Below, in pieces: positions 4,703 through 25,036 of a stretch of DNA of 27,854 bases (position 1 is its first letter; every line of letters starts with the position of its first letter). This stretch comes from Spirogloea muscicola. Lineage: Eukaryota; Streptophyta; Zygnematophyceae; Spirogloeales; Spirogloeaceae. The notes below the pieces were generated by a model, which ran no database searches, was not told the DNA's origin, and saw only the letters and a list, made by a program, of their open reading frames with translations. The position numbers and the translations under genes were made by a program. The stretch is taken from the NCBI GenBank assembly GCA_009602725.1, contig WELB01000019.1, positions 683,680 through 711,533 of the forward strand, given 5' to 3'.

Positions 4703-7700
4703 TTAGTTGCAATCCCAGAAATGTTCCTCCTGGCTATTGTGGTCGGATCTGCAGGGCACCGAAGCTTCAGAAGAGCCACTGGGGCTGCACGCCACCACCG
4801 ATTCTGAGGAGAAGAGGTCGTCCATGGTACTCTGTGGTGACACAAATTCTTTGCTATTGGACATCACTGTGCTGCCTCCGGTCGGCTGCTTGCATGTGCT
4901 CCTCACAGCGCCTGGCAGCAATGCATCAGTGCCAGGAACAGGTGTCTTGCAGCTCTCAAGCTGGGACGCAGCATCTTCAGACGTTGCGGTATATGATGAG
5001 CTCTTGACTGGATACTTGGCTGGAAAGTATCAGCACACGAGATGCACAAAATTCTCCGTCAGTTCACATTCAAAACAAGATTTCGAGGCAAAGCACAGCA
5101 GGTTTGTTGTCCTTTGCACCACAGCTTTGTGTTGTTGTAGATCTACTTCATCGATCTGATACGCATGGCCCACTTTGACAATCAAATTATTTGCTACTCT
5201 CCCTAAATACTAGATTGTCTTCTACAAATTCCCTCAGTAGGCTGTCTGAACTAGATGTGACTAATGCCACAGCAACGCTCACCTCCATCTGCAGAATGTC
5301 CAATGGGTGAGGTACCCAACACCACAACTGATGGTGCATGGACGCCTGCGACCTCAGAGTTGCATACACATGTCAAAATGGTGAAGCACATGTCAAAATG
5401 GTGATTCCTGCTAATTGCAACCTTCTATACATCCTTGCACTCACATCCAGCCAGACGGCACCTGCCAATAGAAGGAGAATTAAGTTGTGGCGCACCTAAA
5501 GCTGGAAGGCTTCCTACATTGCATAGGCCATCTTTTGCCTTGACATCCTGAGTCACTCGATCATGTTGACCTTGCCGTGAAGCCCCTGCTGCGTTACCAA
5601 CTATAGCTGCTGGCAACTGCTCTATGAAGTCTTTGTGATGTGTCGGATGATCAGGCCTTTGCTCTCGTCTATCATCAACCTCAAACTGGGCAACTAGAGC
5701 TGCAAGCTTCCCGCGACCTCGTTTGGGCTTATTGCAACCACCATCACTTTCTCCACGGCCAGACGATGGTGCAGGCAGATGTGACGTTGGAGATCTGGCT
5801 AATAGCTGTGATCCATGATGACCCACAGGCTGCAGGTTGTTCTCTTCTCTGATTCTTGTTCTCACCACTCCGTGTGTCTGCGCATGTCTTGGAGGCACCG
5901 TCTGATCCTCAAGCCCATTCCAGATAGATAGTCGCCCCCCTTTCTCTGAGCTAGGAGGCCTCCCTTTGAGCCCTTGATGCCTATGGTCACCTCCTGCACG
6001 CGGCTGCTCAGCCAGACTTGGCAAGCTCCTTCCCTCATTGGCTGACTCCTTGACCCTGTAACTGCTCCTGACACCTGCAGTGTTTACTTCGATGTTACCC
6101 AAAGGCATCCTACCATACACTGTATCTCTCCCTACTCTCAAACTGGTCTTGTCATCCTCCTGTAGCAGGTGTTTGTAGATGGGCCTTCCAGACGTGGTAG
6201 TGCACTCCTGCTGTTTGTCATCAGCAACCTCTACACTGAAAGTATTCACACCGCTGTTGCCTTCCTCCGCATGACCTCGTTCAGAAATTGATGTCATCTG
6301 TGAGCAATTATCCCAAGTACCCAATCTGCGCTCCTCCTGGTGTAGTGTTGGTGGCGTCTGCAAATGCATCATCTGACACCTTGTTGCAAGCTTGACCTGT
6401 ATCAGTGGGTGTAGTAGCATCAGAAGCGACATGGCCATCAAGCTTTCCCAGAGGGACCTTGTGACAACATTGTAAAAGCTTACCGAGCACAAGGAAAATC
6501 AGGCTGCCATGCTTGATCACCAACTACAATGTCAATTTTGTAAGCCATGACACTCATAGACAGAACAGCAGATCCAAGTCCTTACCAGGCAATGTGCCGA
6601 AGGGCTTGCTGCCAGGCTGCTGGTCCTGTCACTGCTGGTCATCTCAGTGTCTTTTGTTCCTGCGGCCCATTGTCCCACATACGTCAACAAGGATGGCAAA
6701 GAGCCTACATCCACACGGAGCCTCATCTAGACTACATCTGCATATCCTGACAACTACGTGATAGTTGGTCTCTCACCTGAGCTCTCGTCTGCGTCCACCA
6801 GTACCTCTGAGAAATTCGTCATTGAAGACTGGCTATCCTTCACAGCTGCTGACCCAGAGCTTTCAGAGGCTGGTGATACTAAGTCAAGTAGAGATGGAGC
6901 TTTGTATGTGTCTGCACTCCCAATTGTTGATGACCCCGGCAGTTCCGAAGGAGCAGAGGGCGATGTCCCCCAACCAAGAGAGCCAGGGGAGGGAATGCGC
7001 CATGCAGCAGATTCAGGCAGCTCAACTGTCCACATTCTATCAGAGCCACTGTTTGGCAGCTGGGCTGCGGACAGATCCTTGTCCGAAGCAGCTAATGATC
7101 CAGCTGCTATGGGAGGACTAGTAGCCTGTGTACTACTCAAGGCCTGCAGATTAACATCTGTGTCACCTGCAGAGCCACATCTGGACTCTTGTACAACGTG
7201 CTCCATTGTCGATAGCTGGTGGGAGTCAAAAACCTCCAGGCTTTGTCTTGCTGTCACTGTCAAGGTGTTGAAGTCCTGCAAGGGACTATTCGGACCAAAG
7301 GCCTCACTACTGGTTGTCCCAAATGTTTTGCCTTCTGTGTGGACATCTAGCATATCCTGCAGCATAAGACTCCTGCAGTCACCTGATTTTGCCAAGGAAT
7401 GGAAATGAGAGTAGCCTTTCAGCTTCTCTTGAGGACAATCTTTCGCCAGCAAGCTTATGGCATGTATTACTGCATCACCCTCTCCACTTTCGCGAAGGGA
7501 TGCACCACCCTCCTGAGCAGGTCAACAAAAGTCTTAGGTCGTCTGGAAAAAACCGTTCAGAGTGTGCCACATCATTGAAGTTTTGGAATCCATAGAGAGT
7601 ATACTGTCGGAGAAGAGGCACTACGGTCCAGACTCAGACCCTACAATCAAGTGCTGCTCACAGTAGTGCTGAGAGCAACTAAGAGCAACATCTCCTCACT

Positions 7701-10700
7701 TGATGGTCATATGTTGATGCACTGGAGGCATGATTGATTGTGGAGTCATCCAAGCCAGCAGCCGGTGAATGTGCATCATATCGAATTTTGTCTTGGACAG
7801 AGCTGCTCGTTCCAAGCCTGCTTGTCAGTTGCACTCTTGGGTTGCCTCCACTTCTGAGAGAGACGTCTCCCTGAACATGTGAGACAAAATTATGGATTAT
7901 CAACCTTTGACGCCGTGAAGTACTGTCCGGGTATCTTTGGAGGCAAGCTATCTTCTGGTCAGTCATAGATGTTTCTCAACACACTGAGTAACCGATTGGA
8001 GTACAAATGTTGAAGGCCTCCTGAGAGCAGCATGCTTTGCAACTGTCAGCCTTGGGCTTACTAGGGCAAATTTGATGTCAGGGTCTCGCAAGTCAGCAGC
8101 CTTCGTATATGAGCCATCGTGGGCATCTTCTTGTGCAGAGCTGCCTGTAAGCGTGCTTGTAAGACCCACTTTACTGTCTCCACTTCTGAGGAGGAGATCA
8201 CCATCTTCCTGCAGCAAACAAGCCCCAGTAGTCATTTCTTTGTCAATCCATGACATGAATATAGTCATCACATACATGCAATACCATGCAATACATGCAA
8301 TACCATCCAGAAGTAGTGCAGATCATCGCGCCCTGTGAGCATCAATGAAATTGCTGCAGTTTGGTGTGATGCCTTCACATGCTGCTAGGCCTATCAATGC
8401 ACTTTCGTCCTTATTTGTCTGCAGATCAGTGGGCTCACAGAGGCATGGTCGATATTGGAGCCTTGCAAGCTAGAAGCCATCACACTGTGGACACTTGCAT
8501 ATTGTTGGCAAGTGCTGGCTGGAGTATATTCTGGGCTTGAGTAGTCATGCAGCTGATCTTGTGGACTCTGTAGAGGTTCTGCTGCTGCGCCCCCTCTGCT
8601 TGGACATTTCACATCCTTCAACCAAGAGGAAACACCTTCAGGTGAAGTCCACCCAACAGAGCCTGGTGTTGGAACCTTCCATCGACCTCCAAGCGAGGAA
8701 GTTACCTCTAACACGTCGCTGACATGGTCCTCGCCTTGCAGAATGGAATCAGGCAATGTGCAGTCTCCTTGAGCTGATGATTCATCCTTGAAGGTAACTT
8801 CTACCCCAACCGACATCTCCTCCATATGATGGTCCTGAGTAGCACTTGACAAGTCTAACAATGGAGCTGCTGGAGATTGTGAAGCTGCAGGGTTGGCTGC
8901 TGCGCTTGACCCTGGTGCTACATAATTGCTAGCACTTATGAAAATTCCAGGATTTGTACAACTCTCTCTCTTGGGACAGTCTTCATCCTGTGAGACCACT
9001 GTGCTGACAACCTCCACTCTTACTGGATCCTGCTGCACCTTGTTCACTTTCAGGAAGTCAGCTTTAGGAATATCTGCCACCATGCTAGAGGAAAGATCTT
9101 CGACAATTCCAGGGCTTGTACAACTCTCTCTCTTGGGACAGTCTTCATCCTGTGAGACCACTGTGCTGACAACCTCCACTCTTACTGGATCCTGCTGCAC
9201 CTTGTTCACTTCCAGGATGTCAGCTTTAAAAATATCTGCCACCATGCTAGAGGAAAGATCTTCGAAAATTCCAGGGCTTGTACAACTCTCTATCTTGGGA
9301 CAGTCTTCATCCTGTGAGACCACTGTGCCAACAACCTCCACTCTTACTGGATCCTGCTGCACCTTGTTCACTTCCAGGATGTCAGCTTTGGAAATATCTG
9401 CCACCATGCTAGAGGAAAGATCTTCATTCCCCTCTGCTGACATACTGGGACTGTTGTTGCCTATCTTGATAGCAGCATCCGCTGACTCCAATAATGAGGT
9501 CTTCTGCTCACAAATCTGCTCAAGGATCTGCTCAGGAAGCAAAGTCATCACGTGCTGACAGCCGCCTGACCTTTCCGCACCAGAGCACAGGCCTCGCACT
9601 TCCATTGCCATAGTGCTGTCCTGGTCACCATGAATGGACTGTATCTCATGTCTCATGGCTGCTTCTTCCGACACAAGGCCATAGACCTCACTGTCTATAG
9701 GTACTCCTACTGCTCCTGCCAATCTCAAAGGTTGAAGCGAGTCGTGCAAATCCACAGGTTCCGGAGGCAAGTGCCTGACAAACTCTGGCCCTGGACCTGA
9801 GTATATCACAACGTCAAGCAGCCCTGTACATGGCCTTTTGCAGGCACTTGCAATTTTAGCAGGAGAGGAGCAACTTGTGGGACATGATAGTGGCTCAGAG
9901 GTGCCGCAGGTATCACTAGTCATGTTTGTCATCCTCTCAGCTACGCCAGGATCCTTGTCTTCTAGGGGCTCGGCATGCGTTGTATGCATGACATCTTGAT
10001 CCTTGACAATCTGGTGCACCTCCTGACTCCCGGTAATTCCTGTCAAGATGTCTGGATTGGGCTCACTATAAACTGGCACTCCTGCTGCCTTAGTGGGGCT
10101 TGAGGGTTGTGGCAAGGCAGGCAAAAGTGCACAAGGCTGAGAGTGCGCATGGCCTTCTGTTTGTATTGATGTGTCTGACGCCCATGTACATGGCATGTTG
10201 TGTGAGTCTGCAGCTTCTTCAGGAGGGTTGTTTGCAGGCAGCGCTAGCGATACAGGAAGTACATAGCTGGGAGCCGCCGCTACCTCCTTTGTCCTGTCAA
10301 CTGCAGCTTGACCATCACCATGTCGAGGATTCTGATGGTCCAGTACGATGCTCCTCACTGGACTGCTCTCTATGCATTCACCAAGTACTCCGCTGCTCAG
10401 AATGTCCTGGTCAGGAGCTGCATTCAGTCCTACAGTCTCTGAAGGGTCTGGAACAGCGTTTGTGTCTTCTGTTGCAGCTGTGACTGATAGTCCTGAAGCT
10501 GCCTGCTCAATCAGCCCGCTCGTGAATGCACCAGATATGAAGCAAGACTCTCCAACTGCTGATGTGAATCCCTCTCCAGCAGCTGCTCTTTCTTCAATGA
10601 GGCCTTCTGCTATGTCATCAGCTGGAGCTACAGAAGTAGCCAGTATACTGCAGGGATCACCTTTGTCTTCAGTCCCTTGCGGGCCACTAATATTCATCGC

Positions 10701-12541
10701 CAGCCCAGAAAGTCCTTGGTTGCTTTGTTCACACCGCTGATCTCCAGTTGTTGTACAAGCAGAGAATGGGCGCAATGATGTAAGAATGACCTCTGATGTG
10801 CTAAGCCCAACTTGTTCTACTTGTGGCACGACTAGGATGTCCAACAGGACAATGAGCCCTGTGTTTGCAGAAGTGTGAGACACACTTGACAAGGCAAACT
10901 CCTGCAGCGTGGCTCGCTTAAAACCCGTAGGCTCAAGCCTAGAACCTGGCATGCTAATCTGCAGGGTGTTTGGGTGTTTGGCAGGGGGTTGGACTAGTAC
11001 CTTCTCTGCAAGTGATTCCAAAACAGCTATCCTCTCCTGCAATGCCATCTTCTCACTCCCCATTTCTAGGAGCCTCCTTTCCATCTCAAGCACCGCTCCG
11101 GCACCTCTCAAGGCATTTCGCCTCCATTGTAATGGCCTTTCGCCTTGATGTCCATTACCACTTGTGGCTTGCATGCGCAAGAGTTCTTGTCTGAGGTTGC
11201 TAACTGCACGGACTTGACAAAGTTGTCAGTGCCTGCATTCAATACTATAAATAGACCAAGACTTTCAGCATGACTAACCACTTTCTTGACCGTAGCAGGA
11301 GAAGGGGGCGAGACAATATGCTACCTTGAGATCGTGACCGACATAACTGATAATGACTGGCTTTGATAAAGGTGTTCCTATATGTTTGCATCAGAACAAA
11401 GGTTTATAGAGTTATGCTGGACATAATACCTTCCGCTTCTAGTTGGCTTATCCTTCGCCTTGCCATCAGGCTTGCTTCTTTGTTCTTGAGGCCCAGCGCA
11501 TCATACTTAACATTGACAATATCAAGTTGACCATGGAGCTCGTCTAACTGCCAGGATCAGTGTCATATCCACCTTAGCATAAGTGTCTGGGTAAATCTTC
11601 TTTTACTTGCAAGAGAAACATACCAAAGACAGTGCTTGATATGCATGACAAGATGGACATGAGCATCTTTGATACATGCAAATCACAAGCTGCAATCCAT
11701 TGGTCTGTGAGTGCACCTCAATTTCTAAGTCTAGTGACAGGGCAGCATCATCCCTCAAATTGTGCCAGCTAGCAAAGGACTGAGCCACCAGGCTCCAGAT
11801 CTCCACCTTCAGGACCGTCTGTCTGTGCTTAGAGTTGACAAGGACAATAGGTCCCTCACACATTCTCAGGTTACCGACTCTTTCCTTATGCTGCAGGACC
11901 TCCCATAGGCTTGCCTCAGTCACAGACCTGCAAGGAGGAAGAAACAATCTTGTTACCCTCCGATACGAGCTTCAGCTCACATTTAAGCTCCATCAGAACA
12001 TCTTTGCAAAGGGCACCACAGTGAGCACGTGCAGGCCAAGTCCACATCTGATATGAGCTTTGACAGCAGATGGTTTGACGTCTCACCAGCCACTGAACTG
12101 GGCAGCATTCTGGCCAGCTGTTGTAGCGGAAAGAAGCATTCCATCAGCTGCCACGGACCGAAGGGCGATCTTATCCTTTTCAGGCCAGAGTAACAGAAAC
12201 GCAGAAGCTGACGTACACAGCATGGTCTCTAGGTCTCCGTCCTTGCAGGAAGAAGAAGTCTCCGTCAACTCCTCTGGACTAGCCTCACCTAGTTCCCATC
12301 TGAACGCAGGAAATTGTCAGATAGATCATCAAATTCGCTTTGCCCCAATAGCAGCACAATGGTGCTCCCAGCTTGGACTGCCCACAACATTAAGCTTCGT
12401 CTTTGACAGGCTGGAATGACAGATTTCAAGCAAGAACTAATTCCTACCCTCGCATGGCCTAAGGGCCATGCGCCACAGGGCTAAAAGTCCACAGGGAAAG
12501 ATCACACCGAAGGGGAAGAAGAAAACAGAAAATAGAAAGAG

Positions 12542-12633
<92 letters not shown>

Positions 12634-14016
12634 GAGTTAGCCTCAGCAAGTGAGTTATATTGGCAACTTCACCTCCAATTGCTGTACACCGCTGACAGAG
12701 TCCGACCACTAGCTTGTAGCATGACCAATGAGTTGTGGTCCAGCAGCCGAGGACTGTATGCCTATGCACACAATGTTGGACAAGCAGTTAGTGCTCCTTA
12801 AATGACTCTCAGCACTGTCAGTAATTCTCCAAGTCTATTGGATCTCTTTATTCAATAGCAGACTGAATGCAAGGCTAGCATGATTGGCAATGCAAGCCAT
12901 GTTCAATGACACAAACGAGCAGTCTGCCATGCATAAATATATTAAAATAGAATAAAAAGGCTTTTGGAGGACCTACGGTCACTACGAATACCTCTTCGTC
13001 GGACTCAGAGCTGTAGCTGCTGCTGCTAGAGCTCTCAAACTTATGCTCTTCGCAGGGACTGTCATTTGAGAGTCTTCGATTGCCAGACTTTTTGTATGCT
13101 GAGGGCTGCCAGTCGGCTGTGCAATTGTGCCCTTGATGTTGGACAGCCCCGCTCCTGTCCATCACCTCCTGTATGCTAGCAGCAGTTCCACTTGCCGCAA
13201 GCCCGGGCACGGGAAGCCTTGATGCTGGCTTGTCTTGCTGGTAGACTCCAATGTATGGCATGCTCACGCGGTCCTGGAGATACCTAATAGGAGAAATCGG
13301 ATTTTCCTCTTCTCCATCCAGCACAGGCTGAACCTTGGCTTTCAGTATCTCTGGTGATGCTAGCTCAGCCGATGGCTCGTCTCGGGCTTTTACCCCAAGC
13401 CACTCGAACAGACGGGGCAGCCTCTCCAACTTGTCTGCTGAGGCTCGCAATGTTCCTTTGGGCTTTGACACAGGAGCAGAAGGTGCTTTGGATCCACTCG
13501 TGCTTGGGAAGTCATTCATTGGAAGGATCGAAGGGTGGGACCGCTCCGAGCACGGGGCCTCTAAGCCGGAACTTGGCGGAGGTGAAGGGCCAAAGCCAGC
13601 TGCTACCACAAGAAGACTATTAGAAACTAACGGGTTTGGTGCAGTAACATGCGAGTTTGACTTTCTCACGCCAAGCCTGCTTGCATGATCGAAAGTACAA
13701 TCTGCCTGATGGTTCACCGTGCATTGGATCGTGCATCACGCTCCAGTGACCAACCCCTGAATGTCTCCTGCAAGGCCGATGCAACGCCATCCTGCTTTGC
13801 AAATCCAAGACTGAGTATCCATACCTGCAGCTTTCTGGAGATCAGCCGCGTACGACGTCCGAAGCCGCTCCTCGCTCGCCGGCGCGGCGCCCGACGCCTC
13901 CTCCATGTCAGGGCCTGGTTGAAGCCGGGCCAGGCGTTCTTTGGCTGGCAGTACGCCGTGTCCCAGGCAATACGGCTTGTGCCCGCGGAACGAGCAACCT
14001 TGGCCGCCGCCTCCGC
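4703..14016 (-). CDS. Giant coiled-coil and Ser/Pro-rich repeat protein, unknown function, about 2,200 aa
   Basis: I do not recognise the family. Exons (minus, 5' to 3'): 14016-13718 (5' end unresolved, no in-frame ATG), 13679-12992 (or to 12977), 12241-12087, 11927-11717, 11547-11430, 11203-8439, 8208-8062, 7870-7700, 7512-6777, 6659-6586, 6457-6380, 6297-5445, 5019-4703. Every junction is GT-AG and the phases match throughout, giving 2,204 codons including the stop. In order: an Arg-rich N-terminus; a disordered segment ending in a Ser run and SESDEE; a compact hydrophobic segment over the 12241 and 11927 exons; a heptad coiled coil from LDELHGQL through SNLRQELLRMQ and ALQERIAVLESLAEK; then a low-complexity tail of well over 1,300 residues. 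The tail carries three 54-residue repeats, duplicated exons, two W-x-[VI]-P-[ST]-PGS-[VL]-GW motifs, an AT-hook-like KPKRGRGK and an acidic Ser-rich end. The compact-head, coil and long-tail layout suggests a scaffold; that is inference. It might be two genes, split at the intron 12242-12991. Confidence 0.72.
5367..5404. repeat. 20-bp direct repeat, nearly two copies, in an intron
   Basis: CACATGTCAAAATGGTGA occurs twice at a 20-base period inside the last intron (5020-5444) of the giant minus-strand gene. No function is evident. Confidence 0.85.
7512..8208 (-). repeat. Duplicated exons of the giant gene
   Basis: Exons 8208-8062 (49 codons) and 7870-7700 (57 codons) both start and end in phase 0 and encode related peptides. 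Both begin with GD, two variable residues, then LRSG. Both then share V-x-LTS, a Ser pair followed by a Gln, an AA-x-L and a D-x-x-I near the end. The DNA shares the block CTCAGAAGTGGAG at the same place. The next exon, starting at 7512, opens with a weaker third version (EGGASLRESGEGD). The pattern indicates duplication of a symmetrical exon with its intron borders. Confidence 0.75.
8941..9426 (-). repeat. Three tandem 162-bp coding repeats (54 residues each)
   Basis: Units at 8941-9102, 9103-9264 and 9265-9426 are almost identical in DNA, differ by scattered substitutions and keep the frame of the giant gene. Each encodes, on the minus strand, EDLSSSMVADI, then KVQQDPVRVEVV, then VVSQDEDCPK and ESCT. 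High DNA identity implies recent expansion or ongoing homogenisation. The minus frame is the gene; the plus-strand open frame over the same span (8926-9558) is its shadow. Confidence 0.95.
12543..12631. repeat. (AC)n microsatellite, about 44 units
   Basis: An uninterrupted AC dinucleotide run of about 89 bases lies in the putative intron (12242-12991) of the giant minus-strand gene. The Cys/Val and His/Thr frames across it are artefacts of the repeat. Its length may be collapsed or expanded in the assembly. Confidence 0.98.
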
Positions 14017-14698
14017 CTAATTCACCGCCTCGCGGCCTTGGACGCGCGCACGCCGCGACCTCTGCCGGCGCGTCGGCAGCGGCGCCGGCGCCGCAACTCG
14101 CGGCGGGCCTCGCGGGGGCCGCCTCCGAGGCGATTTGAACCCCAAGCTTCCCTAACACCGTCGCCCCAGGCGAGTTTTTGAATCGGAGGCTTCCTCGGAC
14201 ACACCTCTGCACAGACAACTGATTATTTCAAGGCCGCTCCGCCGGGAGACGACCTACCCAGCCGTCCCAAGACCGTTGAGCTAGACCGCCTTCGAACGGC
14301 CTCATCCGCCTTCCCCGTGACCAGTCGGCTCCGAGGGCTCCAGCATGTGTCAGATCTAGGAAGGGGCAACGCGGTCGTCAAAATTGCTCAGTAGCTCGAG
14401 ATCTTCCGTCAGAGCCGCGCCGCGCGGCACGGACTGCGGCGCGGACTGCGGCGCGGATTGCGGCGCTCCTCAGGGCGGCGGCCGCGGCGCCGCAGCTGCN
14501 CGGCGGCGGTCTGCCGAGCCAAGAGCATCCAGACCGCTCCGGCTCTGTCCCGCAGCTCGACCGGCGGTGCCGATCTCGCGTCGGAGGCACGCCGGGAGCC
14601 CCGCTGCTTGGCGGGAGGAGCCCCCGGAAGCCTTGGCCAGGCGCGAGCTGCTGTAAGTGCTCCGCCAGCTCGCCGGGGCGAGGCCCCGAGCGGCGACG
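14017..14698. promoter_or_regulatory. Divergent promoter region between the giant gene and THO3
   Basis: The giant gene reads leftward from about 14016 and THO3 rightward from 14699, so the roughly 680 bases between them should hold both transcription starts and possibly a missing 5' exon of the giant gene. The segment is strongly GC-rich with many GCC/GGC triplets, contains an undetermined base at 14500, and carries a three-unit 12-base repeat. No TATA-like element stands out. Confidence 0.55.
14431..14466. repeat. Three 12-bp tandem units in the divergent promoter
   Basis: The units GGACTGCGGCGC, GGACTGCGGCGC and GGATTGCGGCGC are adjacent. They lie upstream of THO3, close to the ambiguous base, and may mark a locally hard-to-sequence GC-rich stretch. 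Confidence 0.9.
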
Positions 14699-17600
14699 AT
14701 GACCGCCGCCACCACCGCCGCCGCCGCGACGTCGCGCGAGCCGACGCCGCCACCGGGCAACCCCTTCCGCGACCTTAACGTGCGGGAGTACGTGGGCCAC
14801 CGCAAGAGCGTGAGCGCCCGCCCCTTTCCCCTCCCCTCAAGACGGGCTCTGGGGTCAGGTTAGGGTTTAGACCCTAGGTTGTTGGCCAGGCTGCCGTGCC
14901 CCGGCCTGCCGGACGTCTTCACGCCAATGGAGGCCATTGCAGCACACCAAGAGGCCACAGCTGAGGAGCAGCTGCCTCAAGCTCCTCGATGGCTGGACCT
15001 AGCTCACTTGTGTGCTTTGTTGAGCGCAAATAGGCCCTCCCATGTGGCTGAGACCTGTTCTGCGGACTCCCTCGAGCTCATGCGAGCTGCCCTTCATGTT
15101 GCAATTCGGCCAGACGTAGTGCTCGATATATTTGAGGCCCTTTCTCCATGTGGAGTGTGGCTGCCAATCTGCTCGTTGCAGGTCGCAATGCAAGTCAGAC
15201 TGCACCTATTCATTAGGGTTTAGGAAGTTGTGTTTGAGGTCCAGGGCAATGTCATGCTTTTACTGCTCTTCGCTTTGAGCATGCTGAGTATGCTCAAGGC
15301 TGCCGCGGGATATGCGAATTCAGTAGAGCCATATGCCAGAATCGCAGAAATTGAGGAGCGTTTAAGGAGTCATCTTTGTCATAAATAGTGAGCCTGTCCG
15401 AAAGCCCCACGTGCATGCCGTCAGAGCCCTGCAAGGAAGTAGGTCACCGTGACATCTTCTTGTGGGCCTCACTACAGATGAGATGCTGTCAGACGTCCAC
15501 AGTCGTGTATGGCTGAGCTAAGGGTTGAACCTGAGACTCAATTTCGCTCACTGTCTCTTTGCCTGAAGCAAGCAGGTGCACTCTGTGGCATGGAACAGCA
15601 CTGGACGGAAGCTGGCATCCGGGTCCACCGACTACACCGCCAACATCTGGCACATCGACCCTGCAGGCTCTGTGAGTTGCCCCAGCTCACAGGCTACAGC
15701 TCACCTTTCATAGACTTCCCAAACAGTCTTGCTGTAGACACCTTTAAAATCTGAGCTAGAGACAGAAATCTGCAAGATTGTGCAATAATACTGGGTGTCA
15801 GCAATGCCCTTTGAGCTGTCTACAGAAGCAAATCGATGATCTTCTCGCAGGAGGTATCATTTCTCGCAGCGGGCCAGTCCTCAAGTCTTTGTTGCCCCTT
15901 GCAATAGAAGTTTTTACTCCTGTCTCAACCTTCCTTCTTACTGAAGTGTGTATTGAGAATTTTGCTGAAATTTGACCAATTCCTAAGAATTTGCACCTTG
16001 TGCGTTCTCAGATTGTTTCAGTTGTGAAGGTGGTCCACATATGCTGTTGACTGCCTACACATTTGCATGTTTTGACAAACAATGATAATCATTATTATAC
16101 ACAACAGTAGTAAATGTCAGAGTGTGCCCAGCAGATAGTGCACCAAGCAAGGCCCTTGGCTTTGTCATGTTTTGTCTTTGTCTTGTCAAGTGCCAGCCTT
16201 ACTGAGCCTCTGCTCTGTGGCGCAGATATACTGCATGCTGTACTCCACTGGCTAGTCCTGACCCCGAGCTGTTACCTGGCAGGGCAAGACAGGGGGTGCT
16301 GGAAAGGAGGTGGAGCTCAGGGGGCACACTTCCAGTGTCGAGCAAGTGTGCTGGCACCCTAGCCATCCAGACACTGTTGCAACCTGCTCCTTTGATCGCA
16401 GCGTCCGCCTCTGGGATGCCCGCTGTGAGCTCATCGCTCCTTCTGGTGTGAAACACCCAAAATGTGACAACAGCTTGTCCTCAGTCACGAGTTGCTGTGA
16501 GCCCCGGTTGTCATTCATGAGATGGTCCTGATGCATTCACAAGAAGGACCTGATGAGATTGGTCAGGTCTTTTGGTGTACTGGGGTGCGACGATTAAGAC
16601 ATTGTGGCTATGCAACACGATTGCCAATCACCTTGAGCAAGTCTACTTGTTAGCAGCCAGACTCAGCTCTGAAGCAGTCAACTCCTTTCAGCAGGAAAAT
16701 TGAGCCAAGAGGCCCGCCTGAGTGGGGAGAACATTAACATTGCCTTCAATCCTGAAGGAACACACATTGCAATTGGAAACACGGTGGGTTCATCTTATCA
16801 ATAAGAGTTGCAGATGTGTTGCACATGACGCGCATGAATAGAAGCTTGTATTTGTTTGAAATGCCTGGTGTGCTGACATATCTTGAATTGGATGCTGGCA
16901 ACAGGCAGACGAGTTGACTATCATAGACGTCCGGAAATTTAAGCAAGTTATCAAGAAGAAGTTTACCTATGAGGTAAGCCTGGCATTTGAAAGGTAGACA
17001 CCGTCTCTACTGACAATTTCATTATCTTCATATGTTTTACCAGGCTACATGGTTGTGCTATTGCAGGTCAATGAGCTGTCCTGGAACCGGAAAGGAGACC
17101 TCTTCTTTGTGACCACTGGAAATGGTAGTGAATATGTTGGCCTACATATCTGCTGATGTATAGTGGATCTCCAGAATGCATGTTTCCAGTATCTGAAGCA
17201 TTACGATTATATGATGTGATTGTGGTGCCCAATCTGTACCAGGCACTGTGGAAGTTATGCCTCACCTCTCGACACAGACCTTGCATACAGTTGCAGCTCA
17301 CACGCACGGCTGCTACTCTATTGACTTTGACCAGACAGGCAGGTCAGTGCTGCAGGCTTGCGCGCGTTTCGCATGTTTCTGAGGCCTTGGTGTACTCTGT
17401 ATCTAAGGAAACGTCATTCACATCTCACATTATACTCCATGATGAGAATGTGAATGATTTCTCCTTTGCACGGACCCCAATGGTGTCCAAACACATGGCA
17501 GATACTTTGCTGTGGGCAGTGCTGATGCACTTGTAAGCCTCTGGGATGCCATAGAGATGCTTTGCGTTCGGACATTCTTCAGGCTAGAGTGAGGCTCTAC

Positions 17601-18473
17601 TCCCTCCCAGCTTAGGTATGCTCATGGGCTGTATGCATTCTTTCGTTCGAATTTGCAAGGCTGTTTCATCCTTCGTGCTTAGTACATTGACACAGACAAG
17701 TGGAGAGCTCAGTGTTGATGAGCAATAGAATACCATAGATTATCATATGGCTGTCATTGGGTACTCGAAGAAGTTGCTGAATTGACCTCTACTGTTGTTG
17801 GAGGTTGTGTGTATCTGCAGACACCCTGTTAGGACTCTGAGCTTCAACTATGATGGTCAGTATCTCGCATCCGCCAGCGAAGATCTGGTCATTGACATTG
17901 TGAGTTCTTGCTAGCATACTTGTGACCATATGAACACACCAAAGGAGAGTTCTGCAGACTGCATTGCTACGTCAATCTGCAATCTGAGAGAAAGCTTGAG
18001 CAATTCCAGTCACAATAGGAGCATCCTAATTATCAGCATGTACAGGACCTACTAGGTAATCAGATCATGTCTAGTACCTTCTGCTTCAATCCCTTGACGG
18101 TGTGCTTGCCATTCTTTGTCATTTATACGTTCAGACTCGTTGCAAGACTGTTAGGAGGTTACTAAGTGTGCAAGTGCCCTGCTCTTGATAGTGCGAGGTG
18201 GAGACGGGGAGATTGGTGCACACTTTGAAAACCCGGGCTGCAGCAAATTGTGTTGCATTCAACCCGTGCTGCAATCTTCTCGCCTATGCAACTGACGAAA
18301 CACCTCGCTATAATGTTCCCGAGGGTAATGCAATCCGCTTGGTGAAGAAGGCTTCTGCGCTGTCTCGATGTGACAGTGCACCCTGCCATCTGCGCGCTTG
18401 TATGTATGTATGCTGACCTTGCGTGCTATGCATTGCAGGTATATTTCGCGTGTTTGGTTTCGAGGCTCCATGA
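14699..18473 (+). CDS. THO3: THO complex subunit 3 (THOC3/TEX1), WD40 protein, complete
   Basis: WD40 beta-propeller subunit of the THO/TREX complex, which couples transcription to mRNP assembly and nuclear export. Eleven exons: 14699-14809, 15576-15671, 16283-16424, 16692-16783, 16905-16973, 17067-17124, 17243-17342, 17502-17588, 17821-17899, 18192-18324, 18439-18473. All are GT-AG with matching phases, giving 333 residues, the usual family length. The protein follows plant and animal THOC3 block by block: NPFRDLNVREYVGH, VHSVAWNSTGRKLASGS, SVRLWDARSGKLSQEARL, LSGENINIAFNPEGTHIA, DELTIIDVRKFK, VNELSWNRKGDLFFVTTG, AVGSADALVSLWD, VRTLSFNYDGQYLASASED, NLLAYATDE and the terminal FRVFGFEAP. The ATG at 14699 is the first in frame and puts a short Ala/Thr/Pro leader before the conserved NPF. 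Intron 1 is long (766 bases) with telo-box motifs. The gene is divergent from the giant gene. Confidence 0.97.
14858..14876. repeat. Telo-box motif in THO3 intron 1
   Basis: GGTTAGGGTTTAGACCC with a short inverted tail lies 48 bases into intron 1. A second TTAGGGTTTAGG copy stands at 15212-15223 in the same intron. Together with the repeat in COG4 this shows TTTAGGG-type motifs in introns of two of the housekeeping genes. Confidence 0.7.
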
Positions 18474-22374: not shown

Positions 22375-25036
22375 TTGGACCAACACTACAGTCTCGAGAG
22401 AATTTGCATTGAGAGTTCCGTAGCTTCCACAGACTTAGAGAGGTTGCTTGTCATTGAAGTGGAAGCTCTCAGAACTGCAGGAACAGCACTACAAGCTATG
22501 TAAGCAAGGGTGCAAGCTCAACTGCAAGCATGGACAAGATAGAGGAGCAGGCAAAGGCGTCCATTGAGAAGTTGAAGCACATCCTGTACAAGCTAAAGAC
22601 CAGGAGCGCAGAGGTGATGACCTGCACTTTCTGTAGCTGCATACGACGTGCTAATGCACAAAGCTTCAAGTTGTCAAAGGGCTGTTGTAAATAGGCGGCA
22701 ATAATAGCAATCTGTTACATTGTGTCTCTCATTTTGTTTCATCACATGTGCTTAGCAATTTCTGCAATCATTGTGTGGTTGATGTAGGCAAACTCAACCA
22801 GTATCACATCTACCAGCACCATCGTGGACGACCGAGAAACAAGCAGCACAACTACAAGGTCATGGTCATTACCTGAAGCTGCAGAAATATGTTGGGGAGT
22901 AAATATCCATTTGTACGATGATGCTTTGCATGCAGCACTATTCAGGTCAGATGTGTTTCCTGATTGAGAAGACATTTTGCAGGTTGACCGAGGATAAGCG
23001 CGACATGTATTTGTCACAGAAGATCGAGGTGGATATAAGGGGCATGAATCACGTAGAGAAGGGGGGGCAGATCATCAACATTCTACCAGAGAATGAGGTG
23101 GAATTAGTTGAGAGGGAGTTGGATGAAGAGTTACATCAAGAGACACAATTGCAATATGATTCACTAACATGCACACGGACCATGGTGGAGATAGGTGCGT
23201 GAAGTTCCAGTGTCAGCTATCTTACCAATGAGCTGCCTGCTTGTCAGATGCTCAAGGTCAATCCCTGGGCAGCTTTCTAGAAAGCTGCCAACTGCTTTCA
23301 AATAGTTAGCTAAGTGTGGTTTGGCTAGGTTGTTATATATTCAACTCAGTCTGTGATGCTATGTCTGTACAATGTTTTGTGCAGATGAAGAGAATCAGAC
23401 TGCTGTTGTGACAATCACGGCAACGGTAAGAGGAGCAGATGTGACTGACCAAAACCTCTACACAGACATGACAGTGGCCATGGCTGCTCGTGCGCTTGCT
23501 CGTACCTGCCTTTCCTTTGATGAGGAAGCTCAGGTGAGTAATTCTATTCCAAGTATAATCTGGCATCTGCATGAAGACTATGCATCTTGCACCAGGCATT
23601 TTGACTTGCAACTGTTGATATGACATAAATTGCTTATCTTTTCTGTGACTGAGACATGGCGCCCTTGTGTACAGGCTGCACTGAGAAATGCATCACCTAT
23701 GCCAATGGCTGAAGTCTTTCTCAGTGGAGGCCAGCAACTCCATCATCGCTTGCTAGAGCACTTGAAGAACAGCAGTGTTGTGAGCTTCAGCCCGTGCTCG
23801 CTTGGCAGCACGCCTTTTCGGCAGTGCTACAGCGTCTCGCTGCTGGGCTCGCAGGGCGCTCAGCTTGATGCAATATTCAAGCCCTTCACTCCAGGGGACT
23901 CTTTAGGCAGGTGGAAGCGGGCGCCTGCTGACTGGGTTGCCTACAAGGTACACCTCCACGGAGCAACATTTTAATGATTGGTCGTGGTCTGTGCTTCTTT
24001 CCACTGCAGGAGCGAGGCACAATATATGCTGTAGCTTTGGGGCATCCTAGGTGCCTTTTGTATGACATAATGGATTGCCTGCTTCAACTGTTGATCCAGG
24101 TTGGTTTACTACTGGGCTTTGACATGGTTCCGCCAGCCGTCATTCGGAGGGATATCACATTGGGTCAGGAGACATCTGATCTTGGCGTGCTAACGGCAAA
24201 AGTTAACGACTTGCAGCCACTGTCAAACATCCCTTCTCAGGTACGAGCTTGCAGGTTTCAATCACATTGGAACTCATCATAGTGATTACCTATCCCTTCT
24301 CCCACAAGCTTCCCTACCCTGGCTAGCATGTTAACACCTTACCATGTACAACACAGGCTTGGGATGACGCCATACCAGCAGCTGTTGTCAGTAACGGCCA
24401 CATACTAGATGCCCTGCTGGGAAATGCCCCCCGCCATGCGAGCAACTTCAAAGCTGGCATGCACTGGGAGCAGAAAGGCAAGCTGCGGCCTGTGCTTGTT
24501 GATCATCCCATGGGCCCTATGCAAGGAGAACTGCATGCCATGTGGGCCAGGCGAGGCCAGTCAGAAGGTGGCGTGCAGGTTAGTGCCAGTCATGGCACCC
24601 ATGGATACCTGCATTGCAGCAGGTTCTCTTTTTGTGGTCAATGTCTGATTCCTTACTTCTCGCACTTGATGATGACATGCTCACTTATCATGACTGATTG
24701 TCGGTGTCAATCTGGTTCTTGTGCTGAGATGGGCCATTGAAGAGCTTGATCATTCAAGCACCTTCAGAGCTCCGGCTAGCAAGCCCCTCCAGTGTGTATA
24801 TACAGTACCAGATGGCTACCAGCTTACTCAGTATCTGATCACTTTGTGTGTTGCAGTACGTCAGTCCTTCGACACTCCTGAAATTGAGACAACTGAACCG
24901 AGCAGCTTTGCTGGAGAGCCTCAGTGGAGGTCTTAATGCCGAGGAATTGGAGCTCATATTGGCCAAGAGAGATCAGGTCGTCAGCTACTTTGACTCAATA
25001 GCACAGTGGCAGGGTCGCTTTTTGGCCGCAGCCTAG
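22375..25036 (+). CDS. Kinase-like fold protein (FAM20/HipA/PI3-4-kinase-like C-terminal domain), 5' end unresolved
   Basis: Exons: 22375-22499, 22529-22613, 22788-22945, 22983-23194, 23385-23533, 23675-23947, 24100-24240, 24357-24578, 24857-25036. Phases match at every junction; this part is about 514 residues. The N-terminal part is helical and likely coiled coil (LERLLVIEVEAL, then EEQAKASIEKLKHIL), followed by an unrecognised acidic region. The C-terminal 240 residues resemble atypical kinases: a Lys in DAIFKPF (codon at 23879), then DWVAYK, LLGFDMVPP, an ILDALLGNAPRHASNF block, VLVDHP with Asp at 24501, and a helical tail with LLKLRQLN and ELELILAKRD. In relatives such as FAM20 and actinobacterial SCO1664-type proteins, known to me from memory, the block reads N-x-DRH; here it is NAPRH, so catalysis is doubtful. 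The 29-base intron 22500-22528 is abnormally short. No signal peptide is visible. Confidence 0.6.

Follow-up and report, generated by a model that had tools for sequence, protein, structure and literature searches.

A three-copy orphan gene of Spirogloea muscicola with constrained ends and a fast-evolving middle, encoding a candidate tether or scaffold protein

What kind of protein is specified by a long spliced gene for which no known family offers a counterpart? This question is raised by a minus-strand gene in a 27,854-nucleotide stretch of the genome of the alga Spirogloea muscicola (contig WELB01000019.1, positions 683,680 to 711,533), which we refer to as the window and whose own numbering is used throughout. 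A previous reading of the letters alone (the original prediction) had proposed here a single spliced gene of thirteen exons with consistent phase, encoding a compact segment, a coiled coil and a very long disordered tail, and had offered its role as inference. Large low-complexity scaffold genes are prone to mis-annotation and usually lack an assigned function; here, three diverged copies in one genome fix the exon map and mark the informative parts of the protein, namely the head, the coil, residues 61–120 and the last exon, and not the SQ repeat of the tail. The gene, which runs from an ATG at 13906 to a TAA at 4703, is real and, judged from its sequence, apparently functional, and it is an orphan. 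We put at about even the chances that it is a functional nuclear gene for a long homodimeric tether or scaffold.

Using the head and coil on the one hand and the C-terminal 884 residues on the other as queries, we searched the alga's own genome (153 Mb, 471 contigs). Three places were found, the window (C19) and contigs C78 and C389; the head and coil accounted for 10 matches and the C-terminal query for 22, each query hitting all three places and nowhere else. DNA alignment revealed the same neighbours on both sides of each copy, with identities between copies of ~83–89% over the gene and 92–95% over the far-left stretch carrying the gene for conserved oligomeric Golgi complex subunit 4 (COG4). 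In the window and C78 copies the reading frame runs uninterrupted from start to stop codon through 14 exons, and their GT...AG introns occupy matching positions. The gaps between the two copies have lengths in multiples of three in 11 of 11 cases within exons and in 13 of 43 within introns (P ~2e-6 at the intron rate). The C389 copy carries a 4-nucleotide insertion in exon 4, and its exon 7 differs in length by a number of nucleotides not divisible by three. Before its last exon it has TG in place of AG, so that the last acceptor is lost; this copy may be decaying or wrongly assembled. The copies themselves may represent homoeologues or else the haplotypes of a polyploid or a hybrid. As a separate observation, an XRCC4-family gene also lies at three places (C75, C156 and C77); since this gene and the region studied here are each found three times, a three-subgenome or triploid-hybrid assembly is suggested.

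Reading the strand directly and joining the exons initially yielded a model of 13 exons in consistent phase with a single frame of 2,133 residues. When the exons of this first model were compared in a three-copy alignment, 11 gap rows were not multiples of three: six lay within 11000–10737, two within 5495–5445, and the remaining three corresponded to two events of the C389 copy. Because six of these frame-breaking rows fall within 11000–10737, and because this segment has GT and CAG ends in all three copies (phase 0), it is, on the evidence of the copies, an intron inside the initial largest exon (11203–8439) that stands open in the window copy by coincidence. Two splice sites were moved on similar grounds: the exon 2 acceptor to 13599, where CAG is common to all three copies and TAG is not, and the exon 12 donor to 5496, where all three copies have GT, the donor at 5444 not being conserved. 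The exon 12 acceptor is the least certain junction, as a later AG at ~6300 is also common to the copies and in phase. The corrected model comprises 14 exons and 2,027 residues (1,912 in C78), compared with the ~2,200 residues first proposed; the single gene and its one long frame thus stood, while the exon count did not. The gene limit had been set at 14016, which we reject as a start: it is merely the first base past a stop in another reading frame. That chance is an unlikely explanation was borne out, corrected exon 7 alone having 766 open codons (P ~2e-17 at its own base composition) and the gene recurring between the same neighbours on two further contigs.

Where, then, is this protein constrained? 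The ratio of non-synonymous to synonymous substitution rates (dN/dS) was evaluated between the window and C78 copies, at a synonymous divergence (dS) of 0.159. Low values were obtained for the head (0.20), the coil (0.21) and exon 14 (0.18), which encodes the C-terminal 105 residues and the TAA stop (4703–5019). Residues 1–230 as a whole gave 0.44, with 0.18 for residues 61–120, and values approaching neutrality were found for exon 7 (0.85), exons 8–9 (0.78) and exons 11–13 (0.79). Counts of synonymous and non-synonymous changes differed between the head and coil and the tail (Fisher p 0.002), and exon 14 likewise differed from the remainder of the tail (p 0.005). The most conserved stretch is the head–coil junction, residues 321–360, which is encoded in exon 4 and is identical to C78 at 40 of 40 positions.

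The region between the constrained ends also changes in length. Within exon 7 (8439–10736), a 162-nucleotide unit bearing SQDED is present three times in frame at 8940–9425 in the window copy (94–96% identity), C78 and C389 having a single unit each. Exon 8 (8062–8208) and exon 9 (7700–7870), both of phase 0-0, are related to each other, as their encoded proteins gave Smith-Waterman scores of 65 (window) and 55 (C78), in either case higher than 500 of 500 shuffles. An extension of this duplication to exon 10 (6777–7512) was rejected: for exons 9 and 10, 130 of 500 (window) and 20 of 500 (C78) shuffles scored as high, and for exons 8 and 10 the corresponding counts were 26 and 177 of 500. Exon 10 carries the second copy of a motif, W-[KR]-[VI]-P-[ST]-P-G-S-[VL]-G-W, which occurs twice in the protein and is kept in C78.

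From its N-terminus, the protein consists of a 230-residue low-complexity stretch, the head (from residue 231), the coil and a long low-complexity region. The proposed order of compact segment, coil and tail was thus recovered; however, because the 230-residue stretch precedes it, the head is not N-terminal, and the coil is short and interrupted. Conserved ends combined with a middle that tolerates change are our reason for favouring the label of a tether. As a reasoned guess, we suggest a model in which the small folded head and the following coil would bring two chains together and bind one partner, while the ~1,460-residue low-complexity linker would span distance, its length and sequence changing rapidly owing to tandem duplication in frame and to the duplication of exons. 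The conserved 105-residue C-terminal segment would bind the other partner or partners, as would, probably, the conserved block 61–120. Gene, exon structure, two intact copies and location of constraint are observed directly, whereas we infer that the coil mediates pairing, that the linker, from its composition and fast evolution, is disordered, and that both ends bind partners.

Several results weigh against this reading. Exon 10 has a dN/dS of 0.49, so that the linker is not uniformly free to vary, and all these ratios come from a single pair of copies at a dS of 0.16. The heptad signal of the coil has a nominal p of 0.02–0.03, uncorrected and taken from the best of 26 overlapping windows. 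Over the tail, FoldIndex values range from -0.21 to 0.24, around zero, with no clean separation from the head; the disorder first claimed for the tail is thus supported by its low complexity and fast evolution but not clearly by this index.

We next consider the identity of the head. Neither the window head nor that of C78 matched Pfam or NCBIfam at E values up to 10, and against PDB sequences the single chain returned was a pantothenate kinase at chance level (E 0.33 and 0.99), in line with the initial statement that no known family is recognisable. A Pfam scan of pieces of the gene, exons 8, 11 and 13 not among them, gave scores confined to the coil for SOGA (E 0.075) and Shugoshin_N (E 0.09), both under the cut-off; others, likewise under every curated cut-off, were Lzipper-MIP1 (0.19) and Parecho_VpG (0.13) and, in the first model's exon 6, DUF3888 (0.0045), Dickkopf_N (0.062) and GATase_2 (0.062). 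A search of viral contigs returned 7 pattern stretches for the head and 13 for the last exon, and a search of genome contigs with the head alignment returned 47 stretches, with no relative among any of them. Structure models (AlphaFold without relatives) were too poor to read, with a mean predicted local distance difference test score of 32.1 for a model containing 53 intron residues and 44.4 for exon 4 alone.

Could the protein nevertheless belong, as a divergent member, to the XRCC4 superfamily (XRCC4, XLF, PAXX, SAS-6 and CCDC61/VFL3), an option that the original prediction had raised? Such a protein would act as a scaffold that forms filaments and would combine a parallel coil and a greatly lengthened low-complexity tail with a head of seven strands, in which a helix-turn-helix lies between strands 4 and 5. 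As described in PMC7267773, the superfamily shares with this protein the sequence of compact head, coil and low-complexity tail, although its head is N-terminal and ours starts at residue 231. The direct adjoining of head and coil, with the junction as the most conserved stretch, is consistent with such an origin, as are the strand pairs and helix tentatively predicted in both poor models. Comparing the head by hhalign with GAF, XRCC4, PAXX and SAS-6 sets gave probabilities of 0.1–2.2%, the best score being that of SAS-6 (19.2; 2.2%), which 1 of 60 shuffles reached; that alignment, however, pairs the end of the head with the start of SAS-6 and thus joins parts that do not correspond. Known superfamily members reached just 0.26–0.74% with one another, and because true members miss each other by the same method, this test decides neither way. 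PDB sequences gave the head no significant match, and no sequence similarity to the superfamily was detected. XRCC4 itself is excluded, since a separate XRCC4-family gene was found by PF06632 at C75 (31.7 bits), C156 (26.6) and C77 (25.2), the first two over the cut-off of 26.2, with no such match at this locus. The domains of XLF and PAXX were not found in the genome, nor were those of SAS-6 (SAS-6_N), CPAP/SAS-4 (Tcp10_C) and IFT46, in searches run without positive controls. The last three absences are compatible with either the presence or the loss of cilia, because Chlorella variabilis, according to a paper on an allodiploid trebouxiophyte alga (PMC12633428), lacks most or all intraflagellar transport genes and keeps other cilium genes. 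On balance, we regard membership in the superfamily as unlikely.

A more specific form of the idea is a new algal branch of the superfamily, in which an internal XRCC4- or SAS-6-like head with its coil would be followed by a ~1,570-residue tail with a conserved tip, yielding a filament-forming scaffold that carries its own long-range tether, in a genome that also has an ordinary XRCC4-family gene. The conserved C-terminal segment that closes the tail would set such a branch apart, and the tail is much longer than in any superfamily member that we know of. We also consider this unlikely; should the head prove XRCC4-like, an unusually large algal branch would be added to the superfamily.

Similarly improbable, in our view, is the reading of the head as a GAF-like domain that has degenerated and continues through its last helix into the coil, making the protein a ligand-sensing or structural GAF–coil scaffold. 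The idea comes from inspection by eye, which suggests strands AFLLLWPEKD and KIALRSVAADG, helix EASLWEVLQ, strands PIVLV and TVLKVEIW and a helix into the coil, an order resembling that of GAF domains. However, no GAF model was among the Pfam results at E up to 10, and the hhalign probability was 0.53%, with 11 of 60 shuffles scoring as high, in a comparison with five GAF sequences (four real, one invented consensus) run without a positive control for distant GAF domains.

Does the tail instead point to a DNA-damage mediator, as cues in the original prediction had implied, here one resembling MDC1 or BRCA1 and phosphorylated by ATM/ATR at SQ/TQ sites? An SQE at residue 2018 in the conserved last exon, whose SQ is kept in C78, and the presence of an XRCC4-family gene in the genome would be in keeping with this. 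SQ/TQ sites in the tail, however, are not in excess (14 versus 15.0 expected in the window; 11 versus 14.7 in C78) and their retention between the copies (8 of 14) does not exceed that of other S/T-x pairs (163 of 268). [ST]Q[DE] sites are enriched in the window (7 versus 2.1 expected, p 0.006) but not in C78 (2 versus 1.9). Three of the seven window sites derive from the 162-nucleotide repeat; the single unit of the other copies has LQDED for SQDED, and the SQ-acidic repeats, although present as first described, are thus private to the window copy. The proposed SP/TP sites fared somewhat better, SP being mildly in excess in both copies (21 versus 14.5 expected, p 0.04), although S/T-P sites are not better kept (16 of 25). 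The pieces scanned, which did not include exons 8, 11 and 13, showed neither FHA nor BRCT nor any further repair domain. We therefore hold the mediator reading to be quite improbable; compared with mediators with SQ/TQ cluster domains, the likeness is confined to a long S/T-rich tail.

The tail contains the motif KPKRGRGK, kept in all three copies, which had been described as AT-hook-like. AT-hooks are defined by a Gly-Arg-Pro core flanked by basic residues; KPKRGRGK is without this core and was rejected as an AT-hook. The conserved exon 12 block KPKRGRGKLAALVA, kept in all three copies, may be a binding or nuclear-localisation motif, but its core does not fit an AT-hook. Two GRP tripeptides occur elsewhere in the tail, in SGRPIYK and LKGRPPSSEK (2 versus 0.3 expected, p 0.04), with no flanking basic cluster.

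Least probable of all is that the model joined at least two separate genes, or a gene in decay, a reading which the lesions of the C389 copy (the exon 4 insertion, the out-of-frame exon 7 change and the lost last acceptor) and a linker dN/dS nearing 1 might favour but against which stand two copies intact over 14 exons with in-frame gaps only and constraint at both ends.

Returning to the tether or scaffold, parallels can be drawn with long coiled-coil scaffold or tether proteins such as the golgins and pericentrin-like and shugoshin-like proteins, in which a coil is likewise joined to an extended low-complexity region and the ends are constrained. In contrast to these, no family-defining domain was found here, and the coil makes up a small fraction of the protein.

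The remaining exons, all on the minus strand, were placed as follows. Exon 1 (13825–13906, ATG at 13906–13904) is open in all three copies with the ATG conserved, and exon 2 (12992–13599) encodes the low-complexity N-terminal region with its conserved residues 61–120. The head is divided between exon 3 (12087–12241; residues 231–281), with splice sites common to the three copies, and exon 4 (11717–11927), and the coil between exon 5 (11430–11547) and exon 6 (11001–11203), placed by copy alignment and covered by the heptad test. Copy alignment also supports exon 11 (6586–6659) and exon 13 (5283–5345), between which lies linker exon 12 (5496–6396). Intron 2 contains a perfect (AC)n microsatellite of 44.5 units (12543–12631), at which the alignments to both other copies break.

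On the plus strand, COG4 (300–2810; PF08318, E 4.5e-36; PF20662, E 9.6e-51) is convergent with the gene, and a THOC3-like WD40 gene (~14600–18400), its exons joined by eye, is divergent from it, with a PF25174 match (E 2.6e-85) whose 286 bits lie under the curated 305. Neither neighbour suggests a role for the gene. The stretch between the gene and the THOC3-like gene is rich in guanine and cytosine (fraction 0.70 in 14001–15000). Further open stretches at 22450–25030 on the plus strand, whose scanned pieces had no Pfam match at E 0.01, possibly represent another gene. A short run of CCCTAAA-like, telomere-type repeats is located at 146–181, upstream of COG4.

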